From NCBI RefSeq assembly GCF_947623445.1, contig NC_135240.1:28520001-28584000 (forward strand): DNA of 64,000 nucleotides, written 5' to 3'. Below the pieces are notes generated by a model that did no database searches, was not told the origin of the DNA, and saw only the letters and a list, made by a program, of their open reading frames with translations. Made by a program: the position numbers and the translations under genes. This document shows positions 8,107-11,100 of the stretch, in pieces (position 1 is the first letter of the stretch; every line of letters begins with the position of its first letter). Source of the DNA: Clavelina lepadiformis. Lineage: Eukaryota; Chordata; Ascidiacea; Aplousobranchia; Clavelinidae.

Positions 8107-11100
8107 ATGACTGCAAATGTGATGCTGGAGGATGCTCTCTCCAATGTCGATCTTCTGGAGGAACTTCCTCTTCCGGATCAGCAGCCGTGCATTGAGCCCC
8201 TCCCCACCTCCCTCACGTATCAGTCCAATTTCGACACCAACTTCGAAGACAGGAACGCGTTTGTCACCGGGGTGGCAAAATACATTGAAGAAGCGACTGT
8301 TCATTCCAGCATGGTTTGTTCTAATAAAAATACTTGAATAGTTTTCAGCTTGGCAGGAAAAAGTTATTGTGCCAGAACGAGAGCGTTATTACATATACCA
8401 GGGGATGGACTCATGGGGCCTACTCTAAAAATACCAGGGGAGGGAAGGGGGGGGGAAAGCTTTAATAGTATCAAGCTAATGACTAGGTTTAAAGTAAATT
8501 GTTTTATAAATGTAAGTGAATTACAAGAATTCCAAGGTTTCAAATTGTCAATTTGCTCTTAAATTATGCATAACAAGTTGATTTAGGCCTAGACTATATA
8601 TTTGGTTATATAAGGCTGGAACATGCCTACATTGTCCATCTTATGACGCTTAAAACGGTCGGTTATGACATCAGAACAGGCATTGTTCGTCCCCATTGGC
8701 TTTGGTAACACAGTGTCGGTAGTTTTGAAACTGTTTATTAAACGTTTTGCTTGTTGCGCTTAGTCACATCCATTATATTTTTAAATCGTTGAAGTCGCAT
8801 TTATCTGATAATCTTAACCTCCAGCATTCATTTGTTAACGAATACTCTGGACAATATCAAAATTGTTACGCTGTATATCACATGGAATTATAAGGTTAAC
8901 AGAATACCCCTTTGATGAATTTTGCTATTACACCAGGGAATTTACCATTATATGCGTTATGGCTGAATTTTTTAAAGCTGATTGCCTGAGTTAGGCTAAT
9001 TCAAATTAATCTTGGTTTCCAAGACTACTAAATTGTAAAAGATCATAAAAACTTGTTGGGCAAATTCCTAGGGTAACGCCACCCACCTGCCCCTGAAGTA
9101 GGCACCCCTGGATGGTGTGATGTAAAATATTTTGATTTTTATGTTGCTGTTATTTGTTCATAATACAGAATGCGATGTTAGAAGAGGGCCACACCTACGC
9201 TGTGATGCTTTATACGTGGAGGAGTTGCTCACGCGCCATACCTCAGGTCAAATGCAATGAGCAAGCAAATCGCTCCGAGATTTATGAGAAAACTGTTCAA
9301 GTGCTTGAGCCAGAAGTCCAGAAACTGATGAATTTCATGCACTTCCAAGTACGACATCTATCTCATAAGTTAACCACTTCCAAGGGCACATGATCTTATA
9401 AGTGCCCTGTGCAGTGCACATTGTAGCTTTTCATCATCTGTAACTGGGGTTCACTGCAGCTTAGCACAGACATTGCATATCGCAATCCGGCCATATAATG
9501 CAGTGGGGTATTCGTAATTTAGAAATCACAATTGAATAACAAATTTTGTTCGTAAACCAACTTTGGACATCTTTATACCACTTAGTGGCGCCATAGTGTA
9601 TGCATTAACGCTAATATCTGTCTAAATAGTCGCGGGAACTTGTGTTCTTGGTGAAACAATATGAAAGCCAGTTTGTTGTGATTATTTTGGTCATAAGTAT
9701 GAGCCTCCCTGACTTAGAAACTTTATTTTGGGCACGGATTTACGCAACAGACTAAAAGTTGAACAAATAAACCAAAAATTAGCTTTCTATCTAAACAGAA
9801 ATATGCATTGTTAAAAATGCTGCGAAATCACCACGAGCAAAGTAAGTGAAGGGTATCGAAAAATTTAAAGCATCGTATTTTCATAACTACATCTAGCATT
9901 TTGAGGTAAAATATTAAATGCAAGGCTTAAACATGGTGCCATGGGCACATTTTGCATATGTCTAAGTCTGCATAACAACCTGGGCATGTCATCGTAACTT
10001 TCAATCAAAAATTAGCTGTAAATATATAACCTTGTTTGTATATAACCAACCAGAGGACATTATGCTGTATTGCCACCCGCCTGATGTATGTAATCTTTGG
10101 TAGTTTCTTATCGTACATGTCAATGAATAACAATGCAGTTATACATAATTCCTATGAATTGTCATCTTTAATTGTCAATTTTAAGACTTGAATGAACCAC
10201 TTGAAATGTCATTTGTAAGTCGGGGAGTGTTTGTGCAGACTTATATATATCTGTTGTTGTAATTGTTAGTTCAAGGCAGAAGTTAATTCATAGCAGACCT
10301 TTCGGTTGTTCTATTTTCATAGTATTAGTTCAATTCACTGATGCATGCCTCATAGAAAAAAGCTGTGGAAACATTTTATGCCGAAGTTCTCAAAATGATG
10401 TCATCGTCACCAGCACCACGCAAAAAACGATTTTTTTCTGACACTTACCTCCTTAAACTGGGTCGATTTCTCAATATGATTGCCGTCTTAGATGCCCTGA
10501 AAAACATGAAGTCATCGTGTAATAACGATCTCTCTCTATATCGGAGGTTGGAATCCTTGCCTCGGAATGCTCGCTTGCACAAATATTACTTTTTTTATCG
10601 CATCTCAAATCTGAGTTTTTTATTTGTCTGCTTTTTGTTTTGAATCATTGTATTTTGTGCAAAGCTTAAGACCCGGACAGGCCAGGCAGCACCTGATAGA
10701 AAGGTTACGAATGTAGAAAGTTTCCGAGCAGTTGATTTTGTGATTTTCACACGAATAGATGTGGGTGGGCAGAGTGCTATCATAAATGTTGATGCAATTC
10801 CAGAAAAATGCTGTGGATAAATTCACCGGCGAAGTGAAACGTTTGTGCCACCAGGAAAGACGGAAGGATTTTGTTTCCGAGGCTTATCTGCTCACGCTCG
10901 GAAAGTTTATCAACATGTTTGCTGTCCTTGATGCCCTGAAAAACATGAAGAGCAGCGTGAAGAATGATTATTCGTCCTACAGAAGGTATGTGCTGGTCCG
11001 GTTCTCTTAATATTTTACTTGATAAGTTTTGTCACTAACCTCGCAAGTCAATACTTTAACTCAGTCTTTGTGGTGTTGTCTTTAACATGTAGTAATCTTC

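Follow-up and report, generated by a model that had tools for sequence, protein, structure and literature searches.

Tandem mutually exclusive homologous exons are adjacent copies of an exon that share splice phases, have lengths that are not multiples of three and break the reading frame when both are included, as described in the main texts of three surveys (Abascal 2015, PMC4465641; Hatje 2017, PMC5740500; Martinez-Gomez 2022, PMC9741552). We found two pairs of exons in the CYFIP (Sra1) gene of the ascidian Clavelina lepadiformis, 3a/3b and 12a/12b, that resemble the described sets in each of these respects, and one of them, pair 12, is probably ancient. Unlike the described sets, the Clavelina pairs stand together in one gene and beside one binding site. 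CYFIP is named 0 times in the main texts of the three surveys (supplementary gene lists aside), and no paper listed in literature searches on CYFIP/Sra1 splicing and on tunicate mutually exclusive exons describes these pairs, as judged by titles and abstract openings. The Clavelina pairs are a new case of a kind of arrangement that is already known.

Rac1 opens the WAVE complex by way of its CYFIP subunit. The form of the protein that is usually studied is the canonical one, and CYFIP1 has been linked to neurodevelopment. Vertebrates have whole-gene paralogues, CYFIP1 and CYFIP2, which like the Clavelina pairs diversify the same WAVE-complex subunit; in contrast, the Clavelina assembly has one CYFIP locus with duplication at the level of exons. 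We consider it fairly probable that both Clavelina pairs are tandem duplicated clusters from each of which one copy is spliced, and they look built for supplying up to four protein versions near the site of Rac1 activation.

The Clavelina CYFIP gene and its duplicated exons

The window analysed here is a stretch of 64,000 nucleotides at 28.52-28.58 Mb of contig 1 in the 209-Mb Clavelina assembly. The genome note gives a genome of 210.1 Mb with a longest scaffold of 28.8 Mb, and states that annotation is to use RNA-seq (PMC10884593). A tblastn search with human CYFIP1 placed the CYFIP exons in order on the plus strand from 8107 to 18377. Joining the 25 coding exons at their splice sites yielded a complete gene from start codon to stop, encoding a single open protein of 1256 residues that ends at 18386 (Table 1). 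All splice sites are GT-AG, in a search that admitted only GT or GC donors and AG acceptors.

Joined with 3b and 12b, the exons equal letter for letter a public protein, P0005 (1256 aa), named 'cytoplasmic FMR1-interacting protein 1 homolog isoform X2 [Clavelina lepadiformis]', and joined with 3b and 12a they equal a second public Clavelina protein, P0004 (1251 aa), also letter for letter. Both Pfam domains of CYFIP/Sra1 are present across these proteins of approximately 1250 residues: PF05994 (FragX_IP) scores 1307.8 bits in P0004 and 1339.1 bits in P0005, and PF07159 (CYRIA-B_Rac1-bd) scores 37.5 bits in each. By exon search, CYFIP is single-copy in the assembly. At E 0.001 or better in the 209 Mb, an exon 3b query matches two places only, 3b and 3a, and an exon 12a query matches one. 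When all 25 exons were compared with the window by tblastn, second copies were found only for exon 3 (E 2.8e-17) and exon 12 (E 3.4e-5), and the second matches of the remaining exons had E values of 0.02 or more.

Table 1. Positions of the CYFIP gene, its two exon pairs and neighbouring exons within the window
Feature	Position	Strand	Details
CYFIP (Sra1) gene	8107..18386	+	tblastn with human CYFIP1; joined exons equal P0005/P0004; Pfam FragX_IP, CYRIA-B_Rac1-bd
Exon 2, upstream of pair 3	9169..9348	+	exit phase 0; joined gene model
Exon 3a, extra copy	10356..10546	+	191 nt, phase 0 to 2; weak acceptor; below-average donor GAG/GTTGGA (slash, splice junction)
Intron between 3a and 3b	10547..10803	+	257 nt; long enough for splicing in this gene
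Exon 3b, canonical copy	10804..10985	+	182 nt, phase 0 to 2; strong donor AAG/GTATGT
Exon 4	11748..11866	+	first base completes the Rac1-anchoring arginine codon (human R190) after 3a or 3b
Exon 11, upstream of pair 12	14310..14457	+	joined gene model
Exon 12a	14643..14781	+	139 nt, phase 0 to 1; AG and GT in place; in public Clavelina P0004
Intron between 12a and 12b	14782..15091	+	310 nt; from exon coordinates
Exon 12b, canonical copy	15092..15245	+	154 nt, phase 0 to 1; in public Clavelina P0005
Exon 13	15571..15727	+	equivalents of human F626 and M632; from sequence, P0012 numbering and the published contacts

The initial annotation had singled out exon 3. Its description of 3a and 3b is correct in the coordinates, in lengths of 191 and 182 nt, in the open frames and in an entry phase of 0 and an exit phase of 2, and so is its claim that inclusion of both shifts the frame: a CYFIP with both would stop after 203 residues, and one with neither copy after 138. 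Exon 3a is homologous to residues 131-189 of human CYFIP1 (E 9.4e-11) and exon 3b matches residues 130-189 (E 2.6e-27). Aligned over the whole exon, the two copies are identical at 35 of 60 residues (E 2.8e-17) with one three-residue gap, the extra residues being in 3a (one net 9-base indel); over the last 34 residues the count of identities is 25, where 26 had been claimed. The resemblance is not due to chance. The two copies of exon 3 are adjacent homologous exons with equal phases, and inclusion of both or neither breaks the frame. The observation is confirmed and is larger than first reported, a second pair at 14643-15245 having been missed.

In this second pair, the search with human CYFIP1 gave two matches for residues ~559-609, the extra one being the full exon 12a. 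Exons 12a and 12b are adjacent, have equal phases and are identical at 19 of 46 aligned residues (E 3.4e-5); a CYFIP with both stops after 619 residues and one with neither after 585. Three of the gene's 24 acceptors score better than that of 12a, and 18 of the 24 donors score better than its donor. Separate database proteins each contain one copy, P0004 having 12a only and P0005 12b only. It is very likely that pair 12 is genuine, ancient and mutually exclusive.

DNA similarity between 3a and 3b starts at the acceptor AG and stays within the exons, with unalike flanking introns, from which we conclude that the duplication in pair 3 is not recent and that an assembly artefact is unlikely there. 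That both pairs arose as assembly or haplotype artefacts is a highly improbable explanation, for which we found no supporting point: the copies share only the identities given above (35/60 for exon 3 and 19/46 for exon 12), the intron DNA around them is unalike, and 12a and 12b occur in separate public Clavelina proteins.

Exon 12 alternatives in another tunicate and in vertebrates

The 12a type is present in another tunicate. P0003, a tunicate protein 82% identical to P0004, has a 12a-type segment (112 against 12a, 78 against 12b) together with a 3b-type exon 3, and is encoded on a 4066-base contig without room for introns. A tree of 12 proteins, built without exons 3 and 12 and leaving out P0005 and the Ciona savignyi entry, places P0003 within the tunicates beside Clavelina and Ciona (support 91/91; tunicates 100/100). 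The 12b type is found in Styela clava, in both Ciona entries and in P0007.

We surveyed vertebrates in an alignment of the best 120 of 704 CYFIP hits, a set rich in closely related mammals, and 54 of these 120 proteins show an alternative exon-12 pattern. An alternative segment of 49 residues replaces canonical exon 12 in 11 vertebrate proteins of this set, which include Anas acuta CYFIP1 isoform X2 (P0014), Amblyraja radiata CYFIP1 isoform X2 (P0064) and a Callorhinchus milii entry. The other 43 of the 120 are read-through models, in which the alternative segment is followed by extra sequence and then by the canonical segment; in the nine of these 43 models that were inspected, the extra sequence is intron-like and open in frame. 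Many amniote CYFIP1 models of ~1380 residues (P0031, P0034, P0035, P0021-P0023, P0019, P0056 and P0080) join the alternative and canonical exon 12 in this way, which looks like an intron kept open in frame by the gene model.

Vertebrate CYFIP1 models ranging from skate to primates have the alternative exon, in the order alternative then canonical, as in Clavelina. The initial annotation had known of no vertebrate CYFIP with a duplicated-exon arrangement of this kind; for exon 3 this agrees with our survey (none of the 119 proteins that include this segment, out of the best 120 of 704 hits, has it), but for exon 12 it does not, since vertebrate CYFIP1 models have it. Like 12a, the vertebrate alternative is a version of the same exon with the same protein boundaries, is upstream of the canonical copy and shorter than it, and in most cases has SY replacing SF near its end; unlike 12a, it has 49 rather than 46 residues. 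The alternative exon reads SCTYLP in P0031, P0034, P0045 and other ape and Old World monkey entries, and SY.YP in most other vertebrates inspected; constraint may be relaxed in these primates.

A tree of the exon-12 segments, comprising nine of the 11 vertebrate alternatives, two tunicate alternatives and 17 distinct canonical segments, separates alternatives from canonical copies with support of 91/86, a value that comes with the tool's warning of few columns and long branches; this grouping suggests orthology of the vertebrate alternative with 12a. P0082 and P0119 were left out of this tree, their segments being equal to those of P0106 and P0101. When the exon-12 tree was constrained to unite the alternative and canonical copies of tunicates, as a tunicate-only origin would have it, the constraint was not rejected (p 0.41). 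Counting exclusively shared residues, with seven of the 11 vertebrate alternatives, gave nine columns uniting the alternative groups, four uniting the tunicate copies and two uniting the vertebrate copies. A common origin of the alternative exon 12 before the tunicate/vertebrate split is the better reading, though unproven.

Splice sites and constraint of exon 3a

Pair 3 is less certain than pair 12, being plausible, unproven and seen so far in Clavelina alone. Its structure supports the proposal of the initial annotation that 3a and 3b are tandem duplicates for mutually exclusive use, against which stand the presence of 3a in none of the proteins retrieved and an acceptor that is the weakest of the gene. 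Among the best 120 of 704 CYFIP hits, all 119 proteins in which the segment is present have the 3b type, and the 25 candidates of a separate protein search gave one match, again 3b-type. The protein set was clustered at 90%, which could hide a 3a isoform that differs from P0005 in one exon.

Acceptors were scored with a small matrix built from the gene's own 24 acceptors, each left out in turn. The acceptor of 3a reaches -4.7, less than any of the 24 others (left-out scores of -3.0 to 9.7), and 465 of 553 non-canonical AGs of the gene (3a included) score as high or higher. Its pyrimidine content of 0.59 is within the range of the others (0.41-0.82), and the 3a donor, with a score of 5.0, is also within the gene's range, 18 of 24 donors being better. 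In-frame acceptors upstream of 3a were ruled out, because the exon would then read through a stop, an in-frame TAG that ends at 10355.

The weakest acceptor of the gene and the absence of 3a from the proteins found (best 120 of 704 hits; 25 candidates) would both be expected if 3a were a relic, that is, an old duplicate that once coded and is now spliced rarely or never, beside a working mutually exclusive pair 12. We regard this as possible but doubtful. It draws further support from the intron-like GC3 of 3a (0.38) and from an end branch of 1.38 changes per column, compared with 0.016 for 3b. Two conservation tests are also non-significant for 3a: its replacements are no more conservative than neutral ones, which did as well in 251 of 2000 simulations, and there is no significant preference for keeping invariant sites (22/34 vs 13/26, p 0.19). 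For comparison, the replacements in 12a are more conservative than neutral ones, which did as well in 62 of 2000 simulations, and the test of invariant sites is again non-significant (p 0.20).

Pairwise tests alone leave neutral drift of 3a unrejected as well. NG86 estimates of dN/dS are 0.44/3.11 for pair 3 and 0.52/2.62 for pair 12, which we do not take as proof, given the saturation of synonymous sites and the need for outgroup DNA to assign changes to one copy or the other. Under a null for pair 3 that lets 3a drift without constraint and restricts 3b to synonymous changes, 13-70 of 400 runs at matched divergence reach the observed third-position count, so codon positions alone do not reject neutrality of 3a; for pair 12, neutral drift of the extra copy reaches the observed count in 12-78 of 400 runs. 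The identity of 3a fits neutral drift over half of the divergence (2084 of 4000).

Several features speak against a relic. Exon 3a has kept its splice dinucleotides, its exit phase and an open frame with one net 9-base indel, whereas neutral runs at matched divergence, in which indels were not counted, keep the frame open in only 61/400 to 39/400 cases. The probability that 3a escaped a frameshift is 0.06 to 0.0009 at assumed indel rates of 0.05-0.1 per substitution. The strongest point for use of 3a is its fit to the Rac1-binding domain profile, which it keeps: set between identical flanking residues, 3a gives a PF07159 score of 43.5 bits and 3b one of 41.5 bits. We compared these scores with 18 decoys made by neutral decay of 3b to an identity equal to that of 3a, with no indel and the same flanks. 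The decoys score 15.0-39.5 bits (mean 27.7, s.d. 6.9), and 0 of the 18 reach 3a or 3b. Replacements in 3a cluster in its first 26 residues (16/26 vs 9/34, p 0.0087). We conclude from these comparisons that 3a was probably constrained as coding sequence over a large part of its past, and that it probably still serves as an alternative to 3b that is weaker and regulated.

Proposed choice between copies and the Rac1 A site

The copies within each pair share entry and exit phases and none has a length that is a multiple of three, so transcripts with both copies or neither are out of frame. Decay of frame-broken transcripts is established for animals in general. Double or null transcripts of Clavelina CYFIP would be frame-shifted and then degraded, and if such transcripts do decay, this filter on the frame is enough to clear both pairs of double and null products. 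We infer that trans-acting splice regulators would act together with this filter in enforcing a one-of-two choice. Given the weak 3a acceptor and strong 3b donor, 3b would be the probable default and 3a the regulated alternative.

The frame shift on inclusion of both copies, which occurs in both pairs, would also suit a frame-breaking regulatory exon: co-inclusion of 3a (perhaps also of 12a) with the canonical copy would lower CYFIP output via decay, and the introns between the copies, at 257 and 310 nt, are long enough compared with the shortest in the gene to make double inclusion mechanically possible. A pure frame-breaker, however, need not stay open, homologous and matched in exit phase, and 12a or the 12a type substitutes for the canonical copy in the proteins P0004 and P0003. 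We consider this explanation improbable.

Other ways of enforcing exclusive choice were considered. Steric exclusion by a short intron is ruled out, since introns as short as 59-68 nt are spliced in this gene and those between the copies measure 257 and 310 nt. Pairing between introns was no stronger than in shuffled sequences for six intron pairs of Clavelina (9-77 of 100 shuffles as strong; 24 of 40 for one pair), in a blunt test whose duplex program joined very long stretches and which used Clavelina introns alone. By eye, there was no sign of U12/U2 incompatibility. A 16-base element, GCCATGCTAAT[GA]CTGA, occurs at 14188-14203 in intron 10 and at 14495-14510 in intron 11, upstream of 12a; it is possibly a splice-control element, or chance.

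If one copy of each pair is spliced, as we favour, the consequences would fall next to the A site, through which Rac1 binds. This site lies on residues 91-108 and 176-215; N176, C179, N183, S186, K189 and R190 are mutation-tested contacts, and K178 is part of a pivot about which the following helix swings (PMC9481577, main text). At positions 176, 179, 183, 186, 189 and 190, exons 3a and 3b alike read N, S, N, S, R and R. An expectation of the initial annotation, that the swap should alter Rac1 binding, is unsupported at the contacts, since these six tested residues of exon 3, as given in the main text of PMC9481577, agree between the copies. The residues that it reported at human positions 181, 182, 185 and 187 (V/K/Y/S in 3b, C/N/L/L in 3a) are right. 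These four positions, the longer loop and the changed first half are all away from the six tested contacts, and an indirect effect of the swap on the moving part of the A site is plausible.

Rac1 binding is disrupted by C179R, R190D, M632D and E434K/F626A (PMC5614565). Numbered by P0012, a 1253-aa bird CYFIP1 that served for human positions in exons 12 and 13, exon 12 comprises residues 559-609 and ends 17 residues before F626. With exon 3 at the A site, both exons therefore border the same conserved patch in sequence. The solved human structure contains the canonical exon 3, and exon 12a has no match among solved structures.

The swaps would replace one piece of helical scaffold by another beside the A site at which Rac1 meets the WAVE complex, and because the tested Rac1-contact residues stay the same, the most likely effect would be to tune the ease with which Rac1 opens the complex. 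Judged from sequence, such tuned activation seems likelier than altered Rac1 contacts; we infer that the swaps would tune the cost of opening the A site, or adjoining partner surfaces, with the tested contacts kept. Isoforms that swap the CYFIP scaffold at the Rac1 site would serve as natural test pieces for the activation threshold. A wider reading, which we offer tentatively, is that an exclusive exon near the Rac1 patch predates the tunicate/vertebrate split and has been little noticed in CYFIP1, and that Clavelina added the pair at the A site, giving four WAVE complexes whose Rac1 thresholds could differ by cell type. If vertebrate CYFIP1 does share pair 12, this little-noticed exon has been kept since early chordates.

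Scans of the window for Rfam families (at the gathering threshold) and tRNAs found nothing. Downstream of CYFIP, an open stretch at 22331-22771 on the plus strand matches a DEAD-box helicase (PF00270, E 2.3e-23). An open stretch at 50331-51002 on the minus strand matches the 5'(3')-deoxyribonucleotidase NT5C (PF06941, E 5.6e-17). Short stretches at 22.8-23.2 and 23.9-24.2 kb (within 22809-24205, both strands) are alike, at 62-68% over 21-22 residues, and are perhaps a repeat. Perhaps a dispersed repeat also accounts for a 28-residue match of 82% between 3635-3961 and 52094-52300, both on the minus strand. At 55176-58061 on the minus strand, a single open frame runs for 962 residues, which is unusually long, and contains a C2 domain (E 4.1e-8).
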